A stretch of DNA of 23,584 bases from a virus. Position 1 is the first letter of the stretch; each line of letters starts with the position of its first letter. Both the position numbers and the translations under genes were made by a program. The stretch covers positions 1 to 23,584 of IMG/VR virus record IMGVR_UViG_3300021962_000665. One strand, 5' to 3'. Below, piece after piece: positions 401-21,400 of the stretch. The notes beneath the pieces are model-generated. The model made no database searches. It saw nothing but the letters and a program-made list of their open reading frames with translations, and had not been told where the DNA came from.

Positions 401-3400
401 TTTGAAAATTTAAGTCTAGATAAAGATCCTACTCTTTTAATTGGACAAAAAGTTATAAAAAATGATGATCCGTCAACATTTGGCGCTATTTCTGAAATTG
501 AAACTTTTTCCAGACAAAATAAACTTTATTACAAATTTTTAATTTTTTTGGGATATGATGAAAGCAATATAGAAAACTCTGGTGAATTTATTCCAACTCC
601 TTCAAGTAGATTAGTTGATAGTATACTTGCTTCTGACAAATTAGACACTATTACTTTAGATTCTACTATTAGTTTCCCCAAATCTGGAAGTGTATTTTTT
701 AATCAGACAGAAATTTTTTATGCAGATAAAAGTGTTAATCAACTTTTTGGATGTTATACCAAAGGAAAATCTTTTGTAGACATTGATATCCCAAAAACAT
801 CTAACATTGTATCAAATTCAACTTATTTTGGGTATCAAAATGGAATAGTAAGTGATGAATATAAAGTCAATCTTCGTCTTTTAAATGTAATTTCTGGAAT
901 ATCTGCGGTTGACAATAATAATGCAAAAAATTATATATTTGATGATGGTGAAAATATTTTTGTAAAAAATTTAGGAGTTATCGTTGAAGGAAATAAATCT
1001 AAAATTATATCCGACAGTTTAATTTACAATACTAGTTGTAGATATCAATTAGATCAATTTTTTAGAGAATCAAACTATGCTTTAACTTTGAGTGATATTG
1101 ATTCATCTTCTTTAAGAGTTGGTGACAGAGTTGAATTTCTTGAAAGAAATACAGAAATTAAAGTAAATACTTTAAGTAATGTTTTAATAACCAATATTGA
1201 CACAACTATTGGTGAAATTAGATTCGAATCTAATCTATCTGATCTCAATGATTTAAAGAAATATGATATTAGGAGAAAAATTAAAACGGCTTCAAGTTCT
1301 ATAGTGCCTCTGAAGTACAAAAATATTACTTCAGATGTATCTAATTTATATGATGAGAATGGATCGAATGTTTACATAACTTCTAATTCGTTACCATCTT
1401 ATCAAATAGATACAAATATATTTTCTTATAGTCCATCTTCTTTATTCGATTATGATGATGTAGAACAAAAATATACTTCACTATTATTTGATAAAGAGTT
1501 ATCCATAATTAGTGGAGATAGAGTTTATTATGATTATACTGGATCTCCAATACCAGGATTGTCTAGAGGATATTACTATGTGGTAGTATCAGAAGATTAT
1601 AAAAAAGTTAAATTATTTACTTCTAGATCTTTTATATCAATAAACAAATTTGTTTATCTTGGATCATCTTCTAGTGGATCCACTATACAAGGAATTCATT
1701 CATTCACATTATTGTCTCAGTACACTGAAGATAAAAAAATATATCCTCAAAAACTTTTTAAAAAGATTGATCTAAAAAAAGATCCCTTAAAAGAAACTGG
1801 ATCTGACATTGGTACAGAAACTGTAGGTATTCTTGCAAATGGTGTAGAAATTCTTAGTTACAATTCAAAAGATAAAGTTTATTATGGTCCTTTAAAAACT
1901 GTAGATGTTATAAATTCTGGCGAAGATTATGATGTGGTCAATCCACCAAGATTACAATTATCAAGTGGATCTGCAAAAGTACAACCAATTGTTACTGGAA
2001 CTTTACAAAAAATTATTGTAGATCCTCAAGAATTCAATATTGAAAAACCGCTAAAAATTGAAGTTACTGGAGGAAATTCAAAAAATATATCTGTTATTCC
2101 GCTAATTAAGAAAAAATCAAGAGAAGTATTTTTTGATGCTAGAATACTTGAAGAGGGTGGTGGATTGAGCATCACATCAGAAACTATAACGTTTTTGACC
2201 GATCACAATTTTATAGATGGTCAAAAAGTAATTTATGATATTAATAATATAAACAATCAAAGAATAGGATTAGGAACTTATCTAGGTTCTAATATAAATC
2301 AAAATATTTATCTTGGGAACAACACTCCATTTTATGTTGAAGTAGTCAATAGCAAAACTGTTAAACTTTATAAAACAATAGGTGATTATAGAACAGGTAT
2401 TAATACTGTTGGATTTACAACTGTTGGAAATTTTGGAATTCATAAATTTAAAACTGACCCTAAAAATGTAATAGATTCGGTTAAAGTAATAAATCCCGGA
2501 ACTGGATTTGAAAATAGAAAATTAATAGTGAATTCATCTGGAATATCAACTTACTTTAATACTATAAATTTTACTAATCATGGATTTTCTAGTGGAGAAC
2601 TAATTTCTTATGATTATCAAACTACGCCAATTTCAGGACTTTCAACATCTAATCAATACTACGTTTTAAAAGTAAATGATGATTCCTTTAGATTATGTAA
2701 TGCTGGAATTGCCGGAACAGATAATAGCAATTATTTGAGAGGTAAATATGAAAAGTTAAAAACTGTTGGAAGTGGTTATCAGTATTTTAGTTATCCAGAA
2801 ATAAAGGTATCGATAAGTTATATTTCAGAATCTCAAACAATACAAGAGATAAAAGCAACTCCAGTTGTAAAAGGATCCATTACAGGTATTTACTTATACG
2901 AATCTGGTTTAAATTATGGTTCAACAACGGTTAATCTTGAAAATATTCCAAATATAAAGATTTTAAATGGAGATTTTGCTCAACTAACGCCAGTAATATC
3001 TAATGGAAGAATAGTAGACGTTATTATAACTTATGCTGGTACCAATTATTATTCTGTACCAAATTTAATTATTGATACTAAATCTGGAGTTGGTGCAGAA
3101 ATAAGATGTGAAATAAGTAATGGTAAAATATCAAATGCAATTGTTATATCTGAAGGATATGGATATAATTTTGCAGATACATCAATACGTGTAGTTTCCT
3201 CCGGAAAAAATGCTGCATTTAGAGTGAAAATTAGAGAATTGACATTGAATAATTCTTTTAGATATGGTATTCAATATCTAAATTATCGTGATCCATCTGT
3301 AGAGATACTTTACAAAAATAAAAAGAATGAATTACAATACGTTGTAACAGGATATTCCGAAAATTTAAACTCATTATTTAACGAATCATTATCAAAACAC

Positions 3401-6400
3401 TCCCCAATTATTGGTTGGGCATATGACGGAAACCCAATTTATGGGCCTCACGGATATTCAGATCCAACAAACACCTCATCCAATATAAAACTTCTAAAAT
3501 CTGGATACTCATTAACTACTGTAACAAACAGACCAAGTGGTACCAATTTTAAGTCTGGGTATTTTGTAGATGATTATGTATTTACAAATTCTGGAGATTT
3601 AGATGAGCATAATGGTAGATTTTGCAAAACACCAGAATACCCAAATGGTGTTTATGCATACTTTACTACTGCAAATATTAACCCAGATGGTAACTATATT
3701 GGTGTATTTCCATATTTTATTGGTAAGACATACCGATCCAATGTAATAGAGGAAAATAATCAATTAAGTTTTAATCAATATTATGATTTTAAAAATTCAA
3801 CATTGCTTAGAAATACTTTACCATATAAATCTTCAGATTTACATGCAAGGTATGATTTTTTCAATGAATCTTTAGATCAGATATGTGAAGTAGATGGCAC
3901 ATCTTACGGAAACATAGATAATATTTTAATAACAGATAAAGGTAATGACTATAAAGTTAATGACATAATATATTTTTCAAGTCAAGATAACACTGGATAT
4001 GGATTAAATGCAATAGTTGATAGAATAGAGGGGAAACAAATATCTTCTATAGAATCTAAAATTAAAAAATTTGAAAATGCTAAGTTTTATAGTTTGGGGT
4101 CTAATGATTTTTATATTAAATATTCTCCAAATTTTGATATTCCAGAAAATTCTGCAGTAACAATAACAGGATTGAGCACACAATATGCAAACGTTAATGG
4201 TACTCGTAAAGTAGACTTCAGTAATTTTACCACAAAATTAAGTGATAATATAGTTTTTAGTTCTGTTGGATTTGTAACTGATATTCAATTACTAAGTTTT
4301 CCAAATAGAGTATCAATAGGTAGTTCTATTAAAATTAAAGGTCAGTCTTATGATGAATACTTTAAAATTTTAAATTATTTTAGAGATTTAAATATACTTA
4401 AAGTTAAAAAAGTTTCTTCATCTGGATTAAGTACTTCCGGATCAATAGTGACCTTTTTATCAGATGTGTTGAGATTTAGAGATAATCAATCTCCACAAAC
4501 ACAACCTGAAAATTATATTAATTATTTTAATCCACAGTTAGCAATTGGTATTGGTACATATTCTGGTTCTTTTATAGAAAATACTTTCAATATTGGATCA
4601 AATTCTCAAACAATTTCTATTCCAACTCAAAGCATTTATATACCTAATCATGGATTCAAAACAAATCAAAAAGTTATATTAAAACGTCCGAGTGGAGCAG
4701 CAGCTATTTTAGTTCAAAATAGTCCTAGCGAAGCAAGTTTTAACCTTTTACAAAATCCAGACACACAAAAAGAACTTTATGTTATTTCTAAATCTAAAGA
4801 CTTAATAGGAATAGTTACCTCAAAAGACTTAACTTCAAGTACAAACGGATTGTATTTTCCAAATTTAGCCAATGCTGGATCTTTTAACTACGAATATTCG
4901 TTAGAAACTACTTTTAATGAGGTTTTATGTAATGTTGATAGTAGAACTGCTACTGTTTCAATATCAACTTATCATAATTTATCTAAAGATGATGAAGTAG
5001 ATATAACTTTAATTTCAAATAAATCTGTAGGCATTGGAACTACTTCTGTAAAATTAAAATATAATGATAAAATAAAATCTGTAATATCAAAATCATTATT
5101 ATTTACTCCTAATGAGGTAAATGTACAAAAAAATACTATAAACGTAGTTGATCATGGATTAATAAGTGGTGACTTAGTATACTACATTTCAACTTCCATA
5201 ATATCTGGTTTAACAACAAATTTTTACTACGTCCATAAAATAGACTCAAATAATATTAAACTTTCAGAAACATATATTGATTCTACCTCTAGTTCACCCA
5301 TTTTAATAAGTTTCAGTTCTTCAGGCATTGGTACACAGGAATTACATTTAATTCACTCAAATATAAATGTTACTAAAAATAATAATTTAGTATTTGATTT
5401 ATCCGATTCATCGTTAACTGATTACAAATTAAAAGTATATCAGGATAAGGATTTTAAAAAGGAATTATTACATATAATTGATGATCAAAAAAATTATGTG
5501 CTAACTGGGTTAGGAACTCCAGGAATTTCTACTGATGCATATTCTACTTTACAATATTATAATGAAATTCCAGAAGAATTATATTATACATTAGAAAAAA
5601 ATAATAATGTAATAAAACCCGATTTTGTCGGGAAAGACCTTTCAAAGATAACCTTTGTTACTAGTAACTATACCGGAAAATATAACATTTTTAATTTAAC
5701 GGATACGAAATTTGACATATATTTAAATGGTGATCCAGAACAAAATTCTTACTTGAAGGATGAATGTGATATTTTAAATTATTCTACAAACTCTCTTAGT
5801 GCTAGTGGATCTGTTAATAGAATAAGAATATTAGACAAAGGATCAAACTATAAAGATATACCAGTATATAAAAATACATCTTCAGAAAATGGTTATGGAT
5901 TAAATGTAATTCCATCTTCATCCACTATTGGAAAAATTAAAAACATTAATTTAAAAAATAATCTATTTGAGTATCCTTCAGATAATACATTAAAACCATT
6001 AGTTTATACACCTTTTCGTTCTGAAATAAAAGATTCTAATGTTTTAGTCAAAGTTAATGTTTTGTTTGGTGGTAAAAATTATCCATCTGCACCAGATTTA
6101 GTTGTAATTAATAGTGAGACGAAAAAAGAAATTTCTGGTGGATTGATACGTGCAAAAATGAGTGGAACGACAGGGACTTTTGGAGTTGAATCTGTAAATA
6201 TTGATATCCCTTATACGGGATTACCTCAAATTCCAGTTGAAGTGAAAAGTATTAATAATTCTAATGGAGTTATTATTGATACTATTCTTTCTTCCAGTAG
6301 TTCTGGTATAATGACTTGTTTGTTAAAAACTCCAATTTTAGGTTTCATCACAGATCCTTTCACAGTTGGAGAAGAAGTTTTTGTTGAAGATATTGAAAAT

Positions 6401-12027: not shown

Positions 12028-13611
12028 ATGGCAGCTTTTGTTACAGATAAATTTAGAATTATAAATACGACAAATTTTGTAAATTCCATAAGTACCTCTG
12101 AAGATTATTATTATATTTTTGTTGGTTTACCAAATCCAAATACTCCTGGATTTGGAAGAGATGAGAACTGGGATGGACCCGACTTAGCGGTTCCAAGTTC
12201 TGCTGTGTTACCGAACCCAACAGATAATTTTGATTATTTGCCACATTATGGTGATAATATGTTGTATGGTAAAAGAGTTGTTTCTGAAAACGTTAGGCGT
12301 TGTATAAGAAGGATTGATTGGACGCAAGGTGTAAAATATGATATGTACAGACATGATTATAGTGTATCTAATCCAGCAGCAGTTACAAATAGATCTAGAC
12401 TTTATGATTCAAATTATTATGTAATGAATAGTTTATACCAGGTTTATATTTGTATAAGTAATGGATCAAGTGGAATAAGTTCAACTGGAAATCAATCTCA
12501 AGATGAACCTTTGTTTACAGATTTAGAACCATCAAAAGCTGGAACTAGCGGGGACGGATATATTTGGAAATATTTGTTCACAGTTCCCCCAAATGATATA
12601 ATTAAATTTGATTCTACTGAATATATACCAGTACCCAATAATTGGGAAACTTCATCTTTGTCACAAATAGTTTCTGTTAGAGAAAACGCAAATTCTGATA
12701 ACAACAATAATCAAATTAAATTTGTTTTTATAGATAATCCTGGATCCGGATATTATACTGGAGAAGTTGATATATTGGGAGATGGAAGTGGGGGTAGAGT
12801 TTTTGTTGAAGCAAATGAAGAAGGTGAAATAGTAAATACCACAGTTACTGTTGGTGGTAGTGGTTATACCTATGCTTTAGTCGATTTAGGTCCTTTACAA
12901 TCGTCAGACACAATTTCGGATCCAGCAAAATTAATACCAATTATACCACCATCAAAAGGTCACGGATACGACATATACACGGAATTAGGAGCAGATAGGG
13001 TTTTACTTTACTCTAGATTTGATGACACTTTTAAAGATTTTCCAACTGATACTAAATTTTGCCAAATTGGAGTATTAAAAAATCCATCAGTATACAATTC
13101 TAATACTTTATACAATTCAGATAGATTCTCCGCATTAGGTTCTTTAAAAATTATACTGTCCGGAAACATTGTTCCACAAGTTGGAGAAAAAATTGAGCAA
13201 ACTTTGCCTAATGACAAAAAAGCATTTGCTTATGTTGCTTCATATGATAAAGATACTACAGTATTAAAATATTTTAGAGACAGATCTCTATATTTTAATC
13301 CTACAGAATATGATCAAACAGACTATGTTGGAATTTCTTCATTAGGAAATGGTACATTAAAGTTTAGTTCTAGTGGAGGGTCTATTAGGGGGAAAACTTC
13401 TAATTTCACAGCTTCTATAGATTCTTCATTTACCGGTTTAACAACAACAGTGCAAAATAAAACTGTTCCCCTAGATGTTTATATGACTGCTGGTATGGCA
13501 GATCCTGAAATAAATAAAACATCTGGAGATATTATTTACCTAGATAACAGACCTTTAATACAAAGGAACTCTAGACAAAAAGAAGATATCAAAATTATTC
13601 TAGAATTTTAA
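12028..13611 (+). CDS. gp8: Baseplate wedge subunit gp8
   Basis: 527 residues, ATG start directly downstream of a late promoter box; no strong Shine-Dalgarno is seen. It is recognised as T4 gp8 by three blocks. The N-terminus has V-T-D-K-F-R-I ... N-F-V-N-S-I, against V-T-S-K-F-R-T ... N-F-Y-N-S-I in T4. Residues ~175-205 have G-D-G-Y-I-W-K-Y-L-F-x-x-P-P ... E-Y-I-P-V-P. The C-terminus has G-D-I-I-Y-L-D-N-R-P and ends I-L-E-F, against G-E-M-I-Y-M-E-N-R-P ... I-L-F-T-F. Known: T4 gp8 is a dimeric wedge protein that joins gp10 and gp7 during wedge assembly. T4 gp8 has 334 residues. The extra ~190 here include a GxGY beta-repeat pair at residues ~233-287 that T4 lacks. The next gene starts 3 bases after the stop, so the two are very likely co-transcribed. 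Confidence 0.93.
   Translation: MAAFVTDKFRIINTTNFVNSISTSEDYYYIFVGLPNPNTPGFGRDENWDGPDLAVPSSAVLPNPTDNFDYLPHYGDNMLYGKRVVSENVRRCIRRIDWTQGVKYDMYRHDYSVSNPAAVTNRSRLYDSNYYVMNSLYQVYICISNGSSGISSTGNQSQDEPLFTDLEPSKAGTSGDGYIWKYLFTVPPNDIIKFDSTEYIPVPNNWETSSLSQIVSVRENANSDNNNNQIKFVFIDNPGSGYYTGEVDILGDGSGGRVFVEANEEGEIVNTTVTVGGSGYTYALVDLGPLQSSDTISDPAKLIPIIPPSKGHGYDIYTELGADRVLLYSRFDDTFKDFPTDTKFCQIGVLKNPSVYNSNTLYNSDRFSALGSLKIILSGNIVPQVGEKIEQTLPNDKKAFAYVASYDKDTTVLKYFRDRSLYFNPTEYDQTDYVGISSLGNGTLKFSSSGGSIRGKTSNFTASIDSSFTGLTTTVQNKTVPLDVYMTAGMADPEINKTSGDIIYLDNRPLIQRNSRQKEDIKIILEF
12724..12888 (+). repeat. GxGY beta-repeat insertion in gp8
   Basis: Residues ~233-287 of gp8 read I-D-N-P-G-S-G-Y-Y-T-G-E-V-D-I, then a G-D-G-S-G-G-R-V-F-V strand, then V-G-G-S-G-Y-T-Y-A-L-V. 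This is the same module as in the giant protein. It lies in the middle of the gp8 fold, where T4 gp8 has no such sequence, so it looks like an inserted decoration. Confidence 0.7.
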
Positions 13612-13614
13612 AAA

Positions 13615-16600
13615 ATGGCACAAAAAACTAATCTCAACGTAAACCCATATTTTGATGATTTTGATCCGAATAAAAATTTTTATAAGGTTCTTTTCAGTCC
13701 TGGGAAACCAATACAGTCTAGAGAATTAAATACAATCCAGTCAGTATTGCAAAATCAAATTGAATCCTTTGGAAGTCATATATTTAAAGAAGGATCTATG
13801 GTAGTACCTGGATCTATTACTTATGATCCAGAATATTTTGCAGTTAAGTTAAATCCACTTTCTTTTGGTGTGGACATATCATTATATATTGAGAAGTATG
13901 TTGGCAAAACAATTAGAGGAGAAGTATCTGGAATAAGTGCCAGTGTAAAACAAGTTATCTTTCCAAATAATAAAGATGTTGAATACATTACTTTATATGT
14001 AAAATATTTAGAATCTGATAATGATTTTACACAGTCTTCATTTATTGATGGTGAATCTTTATTATCTACAGAAGCAATATCATATGGAATTAATAATATT
14101 GTTATTTCTGATGGTGTAGCATTTGCATCATTGGTATCGGAGAATGCTACAGCAGTCTCTTCATCAGTTTCTATAGATGAAGGAATCTATTTTATCAGAG
14201 GAATTTTTGCAAAAGTATCAAAAGAGACTTTAATTCTTGATTATTATACAAATAATTCATCATATAGAGTAGGGTTAAAAGTATCTGAACAACTAATAAG
14301 TGCAAAAGAAGATGGATCTCTCTATGACAATGCTAAAGGATTTACTAATTTTTCAGCTCCTGGTGCAGATAGATTTAAACTTGATTTAAGTTTAACAAAA
14401 AAATTCTTAACTGATAATCAAAATGATACTGATTTTGTCGAATTATTAAGAGTAGAAAATGGTATCTTAAAAAGGATAAAAAATAAAACAGAATATAGTT
14501 TAATAAAAGATTATATTGCACAAAGAACTTATGATGAATCTGGAAATTATTCCGTAGTTCCATTTAAAGTAACAGTTAATAATTCTTTAAACAATTTATT
14601 GGGTAATAATGGATTGTTTCTTTCTGGAGAAACAACTTCAATAGGAAATACCCCGTCTGATGATTTAATGTCTGTGTCAGTTAGTCCAGGAAAAGCATAT
14701 GTTAAAGGATATGATATTGAAAAAACTAGCACAACAGTGTTGGACATAGACAAACCCAGAGATACGGAAACAATTGAAAATGTTGTAGTTCCATTTAAAA
14801 TGGGAAATATTTTAAGAATTAACAATGTCTATGGAGCACCCGTTAATAGAAATACTGTCTCATTTTATGATCAAAGAAGAAATGAGACAACAAATGCAAC
14901 AGGCACAAAGATAGGAGAAGCTAGAGTATATCTGTTTAGATTGACAGATTCTCCTTATTCAAGTGCCATGTCAAGTTGGGATTTATATTTTTATGATCCA
15001 CAATTTTACACATCATTAACAATAAACACATCATTAACTTCTACTGAACTTCCACAATCTTCTTTAATAGTTGGAAATAGTAGTGGTGCTGTTGGATATG
15101 TTGTTACGGCAGGATCTACAAATAATCAGATCACAATTAGACAAGTATCTGGAAAATTTTTAAAGAATGAATCAATATACATAAATGGTTCTAATTCTTT
15201 ACCAAGGTCGATTTTATCGGTAAAAGAATATAATTCATCAGATATTAAATCGGTATATCAATATAATGCAACTACTCCATTTTTGGGAGATATATCTTTA
15301 CAAAAAAGTTCTCCAATTGGGTTTAGCAGTTTAGATGAAATTACTATAAGTTCAAGTGGTGTAGTAAAAACTACAAATAAACCATTTTCTGGAATAGCAA
15401 CAGGCACAATTATACGATATTCTAGACCTGGTTTTAGCACAGAGACTTATAACGTTGTTACTAGTGTATCTTCTGAAGGTACAACACTTAATGTTTCCGG
15501 TATTACAACAGTTTCTGGAATTGCTGATGGTGCATTACCAAGTTCAGACATAAAAGTTAAATTTGTAGTTGGGAACTCTAATGTATTGAATCAAAATTCC
15601 TCATATTTATATTCTGTACTACCAAATACAAATATATCAAGTGTTGACTTAAACGGATCACAATTAACGTTTTCTTCTCAAGCCATAATCAGTAGTACAG
15701 TTTCTGGAAACAGTCTGGTTTTGTCAACTTCAGATTTTACATTACCAGACAATTTTGGATCTGTAAAGTTTGATACTTATGATTCCGAAAAATATTCTAT
15801 TCACTATGCAGATGGCACTACAGAGTCTTTATCTGGAGATCAAGTAACCTTTAACAATACTTACACTCAGATTACATTCAGCGGTATTCAAAACAAACAA
15901 TTGAGATTAGTCAATGGAACATTTATAAAGACTGGAATACAAAGTAAAACAAAAGTACATAAAAAAAGTAATGTATTAAACGTAAATTTATCCAAATATC
16001 AACAATCTGGAACATCAACAAATTCTTCTATAGAAGATGGATTAACTTATAATCAGTATTATGGTTTGAGAGTACAGGACAAAGAAATATGCTTAAGATA
16101 TCCGGACGTAACTAAAGTTCTTGCAGTATATGAATCTTTAGACAGTTCTTCAGTCACATTTGACTCATTAACATTTTCTTCATTATATTCTATATCAAAT
16201 AATTCAAATGTTGGAGAGAATGTAACCGGTAAAAATAGTAAAGCGGTAGCTAGAATAGTGTCCGTTGCTGGAGACACAATAGAGTTTGTCTATTTGAACG
16301 GAAATTCTTTCCAGGTTGGAGAAGATGTTGAATTTGAATATTCTGGTTTGACTGTTCCACTTTTATCCTTATCTTTTGGAAAATATAAAAATATTACTAA
16401 TTCATTTGGTCTGGATAAGGGACAAAGAGATCAATTTTATGATTACTCCAGAATAATTAGAAATTCAAATTCTCAAGAACCAACTAAAAAATTAACTATA
16501 GTATTTGATTATTTTGATGTTCCACCAACCGATGTTGGTGATATTTTTACAGTTTTAAGTTATCCAGAAGAATCTTATAATAAAGATATTCCAAATGTTG

Positions 16601-19600
16601 GATTTTTAAAGATCAGAGCTTCTGATATTTTAGATTTTAGACCAAGAGTTTCTTACTTCGCTGGATCAGGTTCATCTCCATTTGATTTTTCTTCCAGAAA
16701 TTTTGACAATTCAATAAAAGTAATACTAACTCCTAATGAAGCTTGTTTAATAAAATATGCTGTTTATTTGGGAAGAATTGATAAGTTATATTTGGACAGT
16801 TTAGGATCGTTCATATTGGAAAGAGGAGTTTCTTCTTTGAAACCAATATCGCCAACTAAAGGTCAAGATTTCTTAGAGATTGCAACTATTAACTTACCAC
16901 CATATCTTTATGATCCAAGTGATGCAAAGGTAACTTTAATTGAAAATAAACGGTATACTATGAGAGATATTGGCAAAATAGAAGATAGAGTTGAAAATTT
17001 AGAAAGGATAACATCTTTATCTTTATTAGAGTTACAAACACAAACTTTACAAATTCAAGATTCTGACGGAATTGATAGATTTAAAACTGGATTTTTTGCA
17101 GATTCATTTAAAGATGATGCATTTATAAATCTTGATTTATCTTTAGTGGAATTAGATGAAGATAATAAAGAATTGATACCCCTTAGATCTAGAAATAGTT
17201 TAAAAAATCAACTAATTCCCCTCAACAATGCATCTGATGAGACTTTAGATTTGTCTCAAGATTTTATTTTAACGGATTCCCGTGCTAAAAAATCTGGAAT
17301 TGTAGTTACATTAGATTATGATAAAGTACCTTGGTTGGACCAACCATTAGCAACACGAGTTGAAAATGTAAATCCATTCCACGTTATATCATATGTTGGC
17401 GATATTACATTAAATCCTGTTAGAGATACTTGGATTAGAACTGTAAAACTTCCAGATAACATAATAACACATAATAATAACTTAAATTTAGAAAGTCAAG
17501 TTACTACTGAACGACTAACTTTAAACAATGTTAATAACACCAGTGGAAGACCTGCTGCTAGCGGTGGTGGTGATACTGGATCGATTACAGTTAGAGATAC
17601 TTGGACAGATCTAAGTTTATCTGATGCAGTTCCAACAGGATCGGAAACTTTTACATCAACAGACTCCTCAACATCGAGAAGCACGGAAAGAACTTTTGTT
17701 GAGAGTCAATTGGAAACTTATATAAGATCTAGAAATACTGAATTTACAGTAGCAAATCTAAGATCATATACTAGATATTATGCATTTTTTGATGGACTAA
17801 GCACAATTGACATAGTTCCAAAATTAATAGAAGTAACCAGTGATGAATTTTTATCAAATCCAGGAACTGATGGATCCTTTATTATGGGAGAAACTGTACG
17901 TGGATATGATGTTACTGGCAATCAAACTATAAGTTTTAGACTTGCAAAATCCAATCATAAGTTTGGACCTTATAATAATCCATCTACAGTTTTTACAAAT
18001 AATCCTTATTCAAGAACTGATATCATTCCATCAGAATATAGTTCATCATCATCGTTATTAAATGTAGATACTTTCTCTTTATCGGAGGAAGCACAAGGAA
18101 ACTATACTGGTTTTATAACTGTTGGTACACATTTAGTTGGAGAGTCTAGTGGTGCTTCTGCATTTGTAAAAGATATTAAACTGATATCTGATAATTATGG
18201 TGATCTAATAGGAACGTTTTTTGTTAGGGACCCAAATACTTTGCCGCCACCAGCATCTAGATTTGTTACAGGAAATAAAACCTTTAGATTGTCTAGTAAC
18301 CAAAATAATGAAAATGCCTTGCTTAACAGTGCTGATGTTTCTACAGCAGAAACAAATTATCTTTCGGAAGGGGTAATTCAATCATACCAAAATACAATAA
18401 GAGTTCATACTGTTAGCGCAACTTTAGCAACTACAAATAATATTAGAACAAGAACATTAACTGCAACTAGAAATGAAGAGGTTTCGAGTATAAATCTTCC
18501 TCCCCCAGTTGTTAATAACATAACAAATGTAACCAACAATTTAACTACAAATGTGACGAATGTTACTCAAAATATAACTAGAAATGTAACAAATGTTACT
18601 AGAAATATCAACAGAATTATAGAGAGACAGGAGTATTCGGATCCTTTGGCACAAACATTCCTTGTTGGTAGTGCTAGAGGTTTAAATTCATTTACTGATG
18701 ATGAAAATGGAGCATTTTTAGTTGCTGTTGATCTTTTCTTTGCTAAAAAAGATCCAGGAAATATTCCAGTTACTGTTCAAATAAGAACCACTCAATTTGG
18801 TATACCTACTCTCACTATAATTGGAAATCCTGTCACATTAAGACCAGATCAAATTGAAACATCTGATGATGGTTCAAAAGCAACAACTGTTACTTTCCCA
18901 TATCCAATATTTTTACCACCAGGTAATGAATATGCCATTGTTCTCATGTCACCACAAAGTGATAAGTATGAAGTATGGGTGGCTCAAATGAGTGAAAAAA
19001 CTAAAAACACTGCCAATTTACCAGATGGTGAAAATGTAAGGTATACGAAACAGTTTGCTATAGGAAGTCTTTTTAAATCTCAAAATGGTTCTACTTGGAC
19101 TCCCGATCAAACCGAAGACTTGAAATTTAAATTATACAAAGCTAAATTTAATACTACAGAAGGTATTGCATACTTCCAAAATCCAACATTAAATAAGAGT
19201 AATACTTATATCAGAAAATTACCTCCCAATTCAATAACAACATTACCAAGGAAACTAAAAGTTGGAATAACAACAGTTTATGGTAGTGAAACTGTTAATG
19301 ATATTTTAACTATTGGTAGAAAAATTTCTGATAGTGTGAAAACTTACATGTATGGCAATATTGTAGGAACAGGAAGTTCTGTTTCTAGTGTTGCTATTTC
19401 TACAGGTGGTTCAAATTATAGTGTTGGCGTTTCTACAGTACAAACTTACAATATTGCTGGAAATGGATCTGGATTGCAGTTAGAGGTAAATGTTGGTTCA
19501 AACGGTTCGGTATCGAGTGCAACTGTAAAAAATCCAGGAAATGGATATAGTATTGGTGATGTTGTTGGAATTGTTACTTCAACTATAACAGGAAATACAA

Positions 19601-21183
19601 ATAGCAGTAAAGGTAAAAATGCATTAATATCAATTACTGGAAATAGTTCTAGCATTGACACATTATATCTTTCAAATGTTCACGGTGAAAGTTTTACAAT
19701 AGATTCTGGAAAGATCGTTTATTTTAACAATGCAGGAACAAAAGTAACTATAGGAGTTGCTACAATTACTTCTTCATCAACATATGGAGGATCTTTTTAC
19801 GACGGATCTTATTTTAAAGTTGATCATTTTAATCATGGTATGTATGCATCCAATAATTTGGTAGAACTAAGTGGTGTTTTTCCAGATGGTCCTGGCGCTA
19901 GATTAACATCGCCACTACTCAGAACAGATTCTTCTCTTAATATACCCGCAGGTGATATACCAAACTTCCAAACTTTTGAAGGGGTGCCAGTAAGTCCATC
20001 AAATCCTGGATATATTTTAATTAACAGTGAAATCATAAAATATACAGGTTATTCAAATGCAGGAACTCTTAGTGGACTTTCAAAAGGAATAGATAATACT
20101 ATTTCTATAAAACATGATACAAATTCAATAGTTTACAAGTATGAAATTAGTGGAATATCTTTAAGAAGAATTAATAAAACTCATGACATTGAAAATTCTT
20201 CTATAGATTTAGATTCATATTATTTACAAATAGATCGTGATGGAATAGATGAAAATGGTATTACTATTGCTACAAATAGACCAGATGCTGAAAATATTAA
20301 TGGAACTACTTACCCATTACTATGTTTTAATTCTGAGAAAAACGTTGGAGCAGATAATACTTATGCATCCGAAAATATAATTTATGATACGGTAACACCT
20401 CATTTTGATGTAATATTACCAGGAGGACTTACAAATGTTAGTGCATTAATGAGAACTATAAGTGGAACTAGTTGTAACGGAAATGAAACCTCATTTGAAG
20501 ACTTGGGATATACTGATGTTCAGTTAAATTCTCCAAATAAATTCAATTCTCTTCGTATGATTGCATCAAAAGTAAATTCTTTAGAATATTTGACAGCACT
20601 ACCACGAAATAGATCTATGACTATTGGAATAGTTATGCAAACGCAGAATTATAATTTATCTCCGATGATTTTCTTAGATAATAATTTTACTGAATATGAT
20701 TCTGTTAGATTGAACAAACCAATTAATGACTTTATTGGAGATGGTAGAATTAATCAAATGAATGATGATCCTCATGCTGCAATTTATGTTTCAAAGACTA
20801 TTAGATTAACAAAACCATCAAATACTCTTAAGGTATTCTTCTCTGCATATAGACATTCTTCTTCAGACATAAGAGTCTTGTACTCACTAGTAAAACCAGG
20901 TTCATCAGAATCACAACCATCATTTAATTTATTCCCAGGATATAATAATTTAACCACTGATAATAATTTGGATGGATATTTGGATGTGATTGATGAATCT
21001 CAAAATAGTGGATTACCTGACATTTTTGTTCAAGATAGTTTAGATAATCAGTTCTTAGAATATCAGTATACTGCTGCGGATGTTGGACCTTTTATTGGTT
21101 TTTCAATAAAAATAATCATGTCTGGTACAAGACAAGATAAATATCCAAGATTTAAAGATATTAGAGCAATTGCACTCGCATAA
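13615..21183 (+). CDS. DUF4815-family giant tail / baseplate structural protein
   Basis: 2,522 residues, ATG start 3 bases after the gp8 stop. The N-terminus (N-P-Y-F-D-D-F-D, K-V-L-F-S-P-G, Q-S-R-E-L-N-T-I-Q-S-x-L-Q-N-Q, G-S-H-I-F-K-E-G) is the DUF4815 signature common in phage structural proteins. Further on are SSGA beta modules near residues 486-530 (V-G-N-S-S-G-A-V-G-Y-V-V) and ~1515. A coiled-coil-like stretch (I-E-D-R-V-E-N-L-E-R-I) is at ~1119-1148, and a Ser/Thr/Gly linker with I-R-S-R-N-T ... Y-A-F-F-D-G follows at ~1330-1400. A perfect 11-residue repeat is at 1635-1667, then a D-P-L-A-Q-T-F beta domain from ~1672. GxGY repeats lie at ~1922-1985 and a conserved-looking C-terminal domain closes the protein. 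No signal peptide or transmembrane segment is seen. It fills the place of T4 genes 9-12, so a peripheral baseplate or fibre role is inferred; the exact function is unknown. Confidence 0.9.
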   Translation: MAQKTNLNVNPYFDDFDPNKNFYKVLFSPGKPIQSRELNTIQSVLQNQIESFGSHIFKEGSMVVPGSITYDPEYFAVKLNPLSFGVDISLYIEKYVGKTIRGEVSGISASVKQVIFPNNKDVEYITLYVKYLESDNDFTQSSFIDGESLLSTEAISYGINNIVISDGVAFASLVSENATAVSSSVSIDEGIYFIRGIFAKVSKETLILDYYTNNSSYRVGLKVSEQLISAKEDGSLYDNAKGFTNFSAPGADRFKLDLSLTKKFLTDNQNDTDFVELLRVENGILKRIKNKTEYSLIKDYIAQRTYDESGNYSVVPFKVTVNNSLNNLLGNNGLFLSGETTSIGNTPSDDLMSVSVSPGKAYVKGYDIEKTSTTVLDIDKPRDTETIENVVVPFKMGNILRINNVYGAPVNRNTVSFYDQRRNETTNATGTKIGEARVYLFRLTDSPYSSAMSSWDLYFYDPQFYTSLTINTSLTSTELPQSSLIVGNSSGAVGYVVTAGSTNNQITIRQVSGKFLKNESIYINGSNSLPRSILSVKEYNSSDIKSVYQYNATTPFLGDISLQKSSPIGFSSLDEITISSSGVVKTTNKPFSGIATGTIIRYSRPGFSTETYNVVTSVSSEGTTLNVSGITTVSGIADGALPSSDIKVKFVVGNSNVLNQNSSYLYSVLPNTNISSVDLNGSQLTFSSQAIISSTVSGNSLVLSTSDFTLPDNFGSVKFDTYDSEKYSIHYADGTTESLSGDQVTFNNTYTQITFSGIQNKQLRLVNGTFIKTGIQSKTKVHKKSNVLNVNLSKYQQSGTSTNSSIEDGLTYNQYYGLRVQDKEICLRYPDVTKVLAVYESLDSSSVTFDSLTFSSLYSISNNSNVGENVTGKNSKAVARIVSVAGDTIEFVYLNGNSFQVGEDVEFEYSGLTVPLLSLSFGKYKNITNSFGLDKGQRDQFYDYSRIIRNSNSQEPTKKLTIVFDYFDVPPTDVGDIFTVLSYPEESYNKDIPNVGFLKIRASDILDFRPRVSYFAGSGSSPFDFSSRNFDNSIKVILTPNEACLIKYAVYLGRIDKLYLDSLGSFILERGVSSLKPISPTKGQDFLEIATINLPPYLYDPSDAKVTLIENKRYTMRDIGKIEDRVENLERITSLSLLELQTQTLQIQDSDGIDRFKTGFFADSFKDDAFINLDLSLVELDEDNKELIPLRSRNSLKNQLIPLNNASDETLDLSQDFILTDSRAKKSGIVVTLDYDKVPWLDQPLATRVENVNPFHVISYVGDITLNPVRDTWIRTVKLPDNIITHNNNLNLESQVTTERLTLNNVNNTSGRPAASGGGDTGSITVRDTWTDLSLSDAVPTGSETFTSTDSSTSRSTERTFVESQLETYIRSRNTEFTVANLRSYTRYYAFFDGLSTIDIVPKLIEVTSDEFLSNPGTDGSFIMGETVRGYDVTGNQTISFRLAKSNHKFGPYNNPSTVFTNNPYSRTDIIPSEYSSSSSLLNVDTFSLSEEAQGNYTGFITVGTHLVGESSGASAFVKDIKLISDNYGDLIGTFFVRDPNTLPPPASRFVTGNKTFRLSSNQNNENALLNSADVSTAETNYLSEGVIQSYQNTIRVHTVSATLATTNNIRTRTLTATRNEEVSSINLPPPVVNNITNVTNNLTTNVTNVTQNITRNVTNVTRNINRIIERQEYSDPLAQTFLVGSARGLNSFTDDENGAFLVAVDLFFAKKDPGNIPVTVQIRTTQFGIPTLTIIGNPVTLRPDQIETSDDGSKATTVTFPYPIFLPPGNEYAIVLMSPQSDKYEVWVAQMSEKTKNTANLPDGENVRYTKQFAIGSLFKSQNGSTWTPDQTEDLKFKLYKAKFNTTEGIAYFQNPTLNKSNTYIRKLPPNSITTLPRKLKVGITTVYGSETVNDILTIGRKISDSVKTYMYGNIVGTGSSVSSVAISTGGSNYSVGVSTVQTYNIAGNGSGLQLEVNVGSNGSVSSATVKNPGNGYSIGDVVGIVTSTITGNTNSSKGKNALISITGNSSSIDTLYLSNVHGESFTIDSGKIVYFNNAGTKVTIGVATITSSSTYGGSFYDGSYFKVDHFNHGMYASNNLVELSGVFPDGPGARLTSPLLRTDSSLNIPAGDIPNFQTFEGVPVSPSNPGYILINSEIIKYTGYSNAGTLSGLSKGIDNTISIKHDTNSIVYKYEISGISLRRINKTHDIENSSIDLDSYYLQIDRDGIDENGITIATNRPDAENINGTTYPLLCFNSEKNVGADNTYASENIIYDTVTPHFDVILPGGLTNVSALMRTISGTSCNGNETSFEDLGYTDVQLNSPNKFNSLRMIASKVNSLEYLTALPRNRSMTIGIVMQTQNYNLSPMIFLDNNFTEYDSVRLNKPINDFIGDGRINQMNDDPHAAIYVSKTIRLTKPSNTLKVFFSAYRHSSSDIRVLYSLVKPGSSESQPSFNLFPGYNNLTTDNNLDGYLDVIDESQNSGLPDIFVQDSLDNQFLEYQYTAADVGPFIGFSIKIIMSGTRQDKYPRFKDIRAIALA
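13636..15290 (+). other. DUF4815 domain
   Basis: Residues ~8 to roughly 560 of the 2,522-residue protein. The opening N-P-Y-F-D-D-F-D and Q-S-R-E-L-N-x-I-Q-S-x-L-Q-N-Q-I-E blocks are followed by G-S-M-V-V-P-G, V-S-P-G-K-A-Y-V-K-G-Y-D-I-E and a D-L-Y-F-Y-D-P-Q-F strand near residue 455. This order is typical of DUF4815 (PF16075). The domain end is approximate. Confidence 0.7.
18517..18615 (+). repeat. 33-bp tandem repeat encoding an 11-residue (hendecad) stalk
   Basis: Three exact-length units (18517-18549, 18550-18582, 18583-18615) encode N-I/V-T-N-V-T-x-N-L/I-T/N-T/R (residues 1635-1667). Hydrophobic residues fall with spacing 3-4-4 over all three units, and one further Ile is in phase after the last. 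The units differ by several bases, so selection has kept the pattern at the protein level. A 3-4-4 period fits a right-handed trimeric coiled coil. The high Val/Thr/Asn content also allows a beta-fibre. A proline-rich linker (L-P-P-P-V) precedes it and the D-P-L-A-Q-T-F domain follows. Confidence 0.8.
18628..19200 (+). other. DPLAQTF-type beta domain of the DUF4815 protein
   Basis: Residues ~1672-1862: S-D-P-L-A-Q-T-F-L-V, then V-A-V-D-L-F-F-A-K-K-D, I-P-V-T-V-Q-I-R-T, F-G-I-P-T, Y-A-I-V-L-M-S, and finally L-K-F-K-L-Y-K-A-K-F. It is an all-beta, jelly-roll-like pattern that I recognise as recurrent in large tail proteins of marine T4-like phages. No function is assigned. It sits directly on the hendecad stalk, which suggests a head-on-stalk arrangement (inference). 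Confidence 0.55.
19378..19575 (+). repeat. GxGY beta-repeat pair in the DUF4815 protein
   Basis: Residues ~1922-1987 contain S-T-G-G-S-N-Y-S-V-G-V-S-T, then G-N-G-S-G-L-Q-L-E-V-N-V, then V-K-N-P-G-N-G-Y-S-I-G-D-V-V. The second copy is very close to the copies in gp8 and gp14. Confidence 0.65.
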
Positions 21184-21184
21184 T

Positions 21185-21400
21185 ATGAAAAATTTAATAC
21201 CTGTAGAGGGACACTTAAACCTCTACAGAGATGAAAAAACAGGAGCTATTGTAAATTGTGATTCTATTGCATATGATCAATATATAAATGGTATGAATAA
21301 TAGAAAAAATTACAAAAAGGACATAGAAAATTTAAAAAATGAAGTTAGTGAAATCAAATCTCTACTAAAGGAATTAATTAATGAATCCCGAAAAAATTGA
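21185..21400 (+). CDS. Small coiled-coil protein, likely conserved in T4-like marine phages
   Basis: 71 residues from the ATG at 21185, one base after the preceding stop. An in-frame ATG at 21170 would add five residues, but it overlaps the end of the DUF4815 gene. The N-terminus reads L-I-P-V-E-G-H-L-N-L-Y-R-D and is followed by T-G-A-I-V-N-C-D. I recall a near-identical opening in small hypothetical proteins of cyanophages at this locus. Residues ~43-70 (I-E-N-L-K-N-E-V-S-E-I-K-S-L-L-K-E-L) form a clear heptad coiled coil. No Shine-Dalgarno is evident, so translation is probably coupled to the upstream gene. A 9-bp perfect stem-loop lies inside its 5' end. Function unknown; a small assembly chaperone or linker is possible but unproven. 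Confidence 0.85.
   Translation: MKNLIPVEGHLNLYRDEKTGAIVNCDSIAYDQYINGMNNRKNYKKDIENLKNEVSEIKSLLKELINESRKN
21201..21228 (+). other. Perfect 9-bp stem-loop inside the 5' end of the small gene
   Basis: CTGTAGAGG (21201-21209) and CCTCTACAG (21220-21228) are exact reverse complements with a 10-base loop. Five of the nine pairs are G-C, which is unusual in DNA this AT-rich. No T-run follows, so it is not a standard intrinsic terminator. It encodes the V-E-G-H-L-N-L-Y-R stretch, so coding constraint alone could explain it. Confidence 0.55.

Follow-up and report, generated by a model that had tools for sequence, protein, structure and literature searches.

The locus and its baseplate genes

The window, by which we mean the whole stretch of DNA analyzed, is a 23,584-base IMG/VR virus fragment with all of its listed genes in + orientation: an open ORF of at least 3999 amino acids (aa), then a gp8-type wedge gene, a DUF4815/VrlC gene, a small gene, and genes for Ad2-type and Hc2-type connectors. 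The features outside the region of main interest are as follows.

3383-3682, + strand: YHYH domain, residues 1128-1227 of the giant ORF (at least 3999 aa) upstream of gp8 (Pfam, E = 1.1e-27)
12028..13611, + strand: T4 gp8-type baseplate wedge protein (Pfam Phage-Gp8, E = 9.3e-15; phrog_438, E = 5.4e-152)
13615..21183, + strand: DUF4815/VrlC baseplate protein P0001, 2522 aa (Pfam PF16075, E = 1.3e-61; phrog_358, spanning residues 1-2522, E = 0; ORF65 of Staphylococcus phage 812 in the PDB, E = 2.6e-42)
21170-21400, + strand: 76-aa ORF that starts at a TTG codon and overlaps the VrlC gene at its end; the C terminus of the 76-aa product is heptad-like

With a score of 209 bits against PF16075, for which the cut-off is 30, P0001 belongs to DUF4815, and only 3 bases separate its gene from the gp8-type gene upstream, placing it directly beside a baseplate-wedge gene. 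Its best annotated relatives were found in Synechococcus myophages, with S-SRM01 at the top (53.5%), and 1531 phage records matched it. VrlC proteins are common in myophages that infect cyanobacteria, enterobacteria, or Gram-positive hosts. Trimers of one family member, A511 gp106, are described in a review as pyramids on the double-layered baseplate that turn towards the host on adsorption (PMC9863714). The literature under the term DUF4815 contained nothing on phage baseplates, as judged by titles, and nothing was found under PDB entry 9EUF.

In T4, the gene order is 7-8-9-10. In the window (2-21183), the giant ORF precedes gp8 at the place of gp7 and VrlC comes after gp8; from position only, we therefore doubt that VrlC replaces gp7 here, a substitution that appears to apply to VrlC according to passages of an earlier paper (PMC7029224). 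An ORF of 66 to 82 aa was also seen at the end of the VrlC gene in several relatives, and in two Bacillus phages a protein of 63 to 64 aa after VrlC is listed as a chaperone (PMC11406892).

A periodic Asn/Thr-rich tract before the lectin-like domain

Between two conserved parts of P0001 lies a joint that contains a tract of N-phi-T units. The features of this region are as follows.

17932..18378, + strand: residues 1440-1588, a conserved domain that precedes the joint (AlphaFold2 pLDDT of 69-92 when taken in blocks of ten residues)
18346..18507, + strand: first part of the joint, residues 1578-1631, from AETNYLSEG... to the proline hinge NLPPP; kept by close relatives, whereas distant ones lack it or have a shorter form
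18508..18621, + strand: N-phi-T tract, residues 1632-1669, VVNNITNVTNNLTTNVTNVTQNITRNVTNVTRNINRII; its three 11-residue units occupy 18517-18615
18622..18639, + strand: exit segment ERQEYS, residues 1670-1675, leading to DPLAQTF (locus alignment)
18640..19155, + strand: lectin-like beta-sandwich, residues 1676-1847, starting with DPLAQTF (AlphaFold2 pLDDT of 86-93 for the middle blocks, model residues 261-350, and of 51-82 for the other blocks)

The three units at 18517-18615 (residues 1635-1667) read NITNVTNNLTT / NVTNVTQNITR / NVTNVTRNINR and form the best 3-4-4 window of the whole 2522-aa protein. The 3-4-4 hydrophobic spacing that the first-pass annotation had described is exact in each unit, with 9/9 hydrophobics on the lattice and none off it; the further in-phase Ile that it mentioned is Ile1669, and Val1632 upstream is in phase as well. 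Its consensus, N-V-T-N-V-T-x-N-I-T-R, matches unit 2 letter for letter but not units 1 and 3. We also recovered the DNA divergence that it reported between units (pairwise differences of 10, 11, and 7 of 33 bases, 16/28 of them at third positions; TRF, 2.7 copies of 33 bp at 80%) and the near-absence of charge (3 Arg and 0 Lys, Asp, or Glu in 33 residues).

The helical phase concentration of the window tract was R = 0.90 at 3.65 residues per turn; when its spacings were put in random order, 7% of the arrangements did as well. Chance would hardly produce such hydrophobic regularity, but among arrangements of N-phi-T units with steps of 3 or 4, the 3-4-4 order stands out only slightly. With a period near 11/3 and every hydrophobic on the lattice, the window tract taken by itself would suit a trimeric coiled coil of alpha helices, continuous and right-handed, with a hendecad repeat.

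The rhythm and length of the tract differ between relatives

In an alignment of 100 loci, close relatives carried the same kind of tract with other rhythms: NVTNVTR heptads (3-4) in L010, N-phi-T-Q with a hydrophobic residue every four in L005 and L011 (4-4-4-4-4 in L005), two steps of five (5-5) in L040, an alternating VNVNVNV (2-2-2) in L003, and mixed spacings in others. More distant orthologues had long runs of 3-spacing, and up to six 3s in a row were counted in L145. Over 36 distinct tracts, we counted 128 threes, 65 fours, 9 fives, and 7 twos in many orders, the longest runs being six threes and five fours. The persistence of the 11-residue period in orthologues had been set as a check beforehand, and the period was lost, with the window's tract alone (1/36) keeping 3-4-4 throughout. 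The step from a hendecad to a right-handed coiled coil, as originally made, is thus not supported, given the heptads and the 4-4-4-4-4, 2-2-2, 5-5, and six-3 arrangements of the orthologues. Hartmann et al. (2016) place periodicities of 4.0 and 3.0 beyond the range accessible to coiled coils (PMC4786415), and this is where the orthologue runs of five 4s and six 3s fall. Since spacer length and rhythm both differ between relatives, the 11-residue rhythm of the window is probably one of several arrangements, and a conserved hendecad coiled coil is unlikely. As read from the sequences, the recurring element is not the hendecad but the triplet N-[VI]-T with 0 to 2 linker residues.

Measured from the conserved AETNY to DPLAQTF, the joint is 98 residues long in the window, 86 to 103 in 13 close relatives, and 28 in four Herelleviridae. 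Across the 97/100 loci that span it (the contigs of L026, L033, and L046 do not and were left out), it ranges from 25 to 132 residues, with a median of 50. The number of units had been proposed as a length ruler that varies between phages: the length does vary, but nothing ties it to a measured distance. Two or more prolines occurred in the 20 residues before the first N-phi-T in 19/40 tract contexts. Many orthologues have an irregular Thr/Arg/Asn-rich linker at the joint, and no N-phi-T unit was present in 67/142 distinct contexts, a set from which 27/226 loci without an anchor context had been dropped and to which the N-V-T scan (L101-L146) and a query containing the stalk (L147-L226) had contributed loci. 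The tract is therefore not essential to the DUF4815 family.

The 36 tracts, 811 residues in all, contained 0 Gly, Pro, Ala, Met, or aromatic residues, and Val/Ile made up 246/248 of the regular hydrophobics; this composition is partly circular, because the heuristic used for tract delimitation forces polar/phi/Thr-Ser-Asn triplets (it also cut some tracts short, such as those of L050 and L009). Propensity tables and the GCN4 sequence were used for comparison. Chou-Fasman values over all tracts were 1.20 for strand versus 0.90 for helix, and on the Pace-Scholtz scale, the window tract scored 0.55 versus 0.38 for GCN4, a sign of poor helix formers throughout. The idea of an unusual fibre motif is supported, the tract being distinct, Asn/Thr-rich, charge-poor, and fibre-like.

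The triplet recurs at one joint

We scanned IMG/VR DNA for codons that would encode N-[VI]-T four times in a row, without reference to DUF4815. The scan matched 48 contigs, 32 of which encode DUF4815 proteins, the other 16 having short or unrelated ORFs. In 28/48, the tract lies 20 to 64 residues upstream of DP[LIV]A[QE][TS][FL]; a 29th contig with the tract, L126, ends inside this motif. A control scan with the same codons in the order (N-T-[VI])x4 matched 55 contigs, 0/55 of them at the joint. Three further DUF4815 proteins (L119, L134, and L140) carry the tract between the equivalents of P0001 residues 271 and 274, and L140, the only one of them to reach the usual joint, has no tract there. 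In L140 (as also in L119 and L134), the tract, at about ORF residues 300 to 350, lies between a proline-rich stretch on its N-terminal side and a glycine-rich stretch on its C-terminal side.

Bacterial genomes (GTDB), scanned for five triplets, gave 93 stretches, of which 80 were retrieved as loci (L282-L361). After ORFs shorter than 150 aa had been left out, the array fell within an ORF in 41/80, and 14/41 of these had a GWxP[LT] motif. Two of six bacterial ORFs scanned against Pfam matched DUF6600, both of them of the GWxP[LT] kind, with the domain ending just before the array. In L302, L319, and other GTDB loci from several phyla, a DUF6600 domain or a GWxPL motif immediately precedes the N-V-T array. 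By sequence, then, N-phi-T appears as a recurrent triplet module that is not phage-only, and the motif alone is no proof of a trimer, since arrays occur in unrelated bacterial proteins and in another DUF4815 loop (L140).

Long arrays of the opposite order, T-I-N, were observed in unrelated viral ORFs (L229, L240, L241, L243, L261, L262, L268, and L272, and also L228, L233, L242, L269, and L275). Their flanks recur, with, for example, STREVSGFEIEYRNC before the array or VCxxDEIPSG after it.

A tandem 33-bp repeat could also be a neutral low-complexity product of DNA slippage, with no selected function, and the occurrence of such arrays in unrelated bacterial proteins would suit this explanation. 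Neighboring same-residue codons were identical in 277/466 cases versus 247 expected from codon usage, a slight overall excess that was strong in only a few tracts (16/18 in L004 and 11/12 in L144), which points to recent slippage in places. In the window, however, 7/16 were identical, below the 8.9 expected, and slippage is likewise at odds with the failure of the control order to appear even once at the joint. We consider this explanation very unlikely. Because the codons inside the units are nearly randomized, what is kept by selection appears to be the protein motif and not the DNA repeat.

On a tree of the downstream domain, reduced from 194 to 107 rows by removal of near-copies and including the loci fetched by tract as above, the label "at least 4 units" needed 10 changes, of which starred branches force 6 or more; a recombined domain would inflate this number. 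Within the subset L001-L100, the same label needed 2 changes.

Predicted structure of the tract and the downstream domain

The fold search with the first AlphaFold2 model bears only on the lectin-like domain, which VIA-align placed closest to the chains of phage 812 ORF65 (Z = 17.5-18.7) and, at Z = 10.7, to Cwp84, a protein that holds a lectin-like domain. A Cwp84-like lectin fold is described by Nuytten et al. for the equivalent region of VrlC proteins from two Bacillus phages, which are homologues of A511 gp106 (PMC11406892). Comparison of the tract with PDB sequences gave chance-level matches alone (best E values, 0.31, 0.75, and 0.07), and no solved structure of the tract was therefore identified by sequence.

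In single-chain AlphaFold2 models, pLDDT at the tract was about 30 to 40, which denotes neither confident disorder nor a confident monomeric fold. The model from the deeper alignment left residues 1589-1672 below 50 and without secondary structure; the one from the stalk-enriched alignment formed a helix at 1648-1669 with a pLDDT of about 33. This helix is what a hendecad coil would predict, but it is missing from the deeper-alignment model, and the runs at spacings of 3.0 and 4.0, together with the poor helix propensity, disfavor a continuous alpha-helical coiled coil, which we regard as quite improbable.

The main rival to short beta segments is a flexible, largely disordered Asn/Thr-rich interdomain linker without stalk structure. 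Low pLDDT with both alignments is consistent with it, as are the irregular Thr/Asn/Arg-rich linkers of other lengths that most orthologues have at the same place. Such a linker would nonetheless not be expected to keep a strict Val or Ile at every third or fourth residue, to dispense with Gly, Pro, and Ala altogether (in part a product of tract delimitation), to recur at the joint in one order of residues and not in the other (28/48 versus 0/55), or to hold its motif through codon saturation. We judge it unlikely, though still worth serious attention. Neither helical periodicity nor ordinary linker composition fits the tract.

Proposed role of the tract

What was established directly is where the tract lies, the unit it is built from, the variability of its spacing and length, the saturation of its codons, how it recurs at the joint, and the fold of the domain downstream. 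Our preferred reading, to which we give about an even chance (roughly 0.5), is that the tract serves as a trimeric spacer, variable in length and probably rich in beta structure, that separates the body of the DUF4815/VrlC baseplate protein from its lectin-like domain; we infer its trimeric state, its beta structure, and its function as a spacer. A trimer is plausible by analogy with A511 gp106 of the same family, for which trimers have been described.

N-[Val/Ile]-Thr triplets with 0 to 2 polar linker residues would build the spacer at the joint. Three chains probably run side by side, their Val/Ile residues facing inward and their Asn/Thr residues exposed on the surface, as a thin parallel stalk almost without charge that would hold the lectin-like part and the C-terminal ~670 residues off the baseplate. 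Its secondary structure would most likely consist of short beta segments (stacked crossing strands, for example, beta-layers) rather than a continuous alpha helix, since helix formers are scarce. Units may be gained and lost singly while selection keeps the amino acid motif, so that length would change quickly. A recurrent triplet module, specific in its order and varying in length at a single joint, would reveal how phages adjust the reach of a baseplate domain that contacts the host.

More speculatively, N-[VI]-T could be a portable fibre module in which three chains stack beta-layers of three residues, one directly after another, into a thin fibre that tolerates linkers of 0 to 2 residues. 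Its stalk length would be tuned by single triplets, and it would have been acquired repeatedly at the same VrlC joint (in one lineage, at another loop) and possibly also by unrelated bacterial proteins. We think this extended version improbable as it stands. If true, it would represent a fibre fold with a 3-residue repeat, which the passages on beta-layers in the paper of Hartmann et al. do not describe (PMC4786415).

Comparison with known systems

The protein belongs to a known kind, the VrlC/gp106 baseplate proteins, and its N-phi-T stalk sets it apart as a variant. Within the A511 gp106/812 ORF65 group, the window protein resembles 812 ORF65 in belonging to the same Pfam family and in its alignable N-terminal blocks, 1042-1277 block, and lectin-like domain. 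It differs in size (2522 aa versus 1152 aa) and in the joint, which in four Herelleviridae proteins is made of 28 residues without N-phi-T units and in the window protein of 98.

The tract is also reminiscent of the alpha/beta coiled coils and beta-layers of Hartmann et al. (2016), with which it shares hydrophobic-polar-polar triplets and a departure from helical periodicity by multiples of 3 (PMC4786415). Where a beta-layer precedes a helix, Asp, Asn, Thr, and Ser are favored at the last beta position, according to the same passages (PMC4786415). The known beta-layers given there alternate with helical segments of 3 or 6 residues, whereas directly repeated triplets, as seen in our tract at the level of sequence, are not described in them (PMC4786415). 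Finally, the polar N@d coiled coils of trimeric autotransporter adhesins are likewise trimeric stalks with Asn in a repeated role (PMC4786415), a likeness that extends to our tract insofar as it is a trimer. In those coils, Asn sits in the core at position d, whereas in the window tract it is Ile, Val, and Leu that occupy the regularly spaced, core-type positions, and Asn precedes them.
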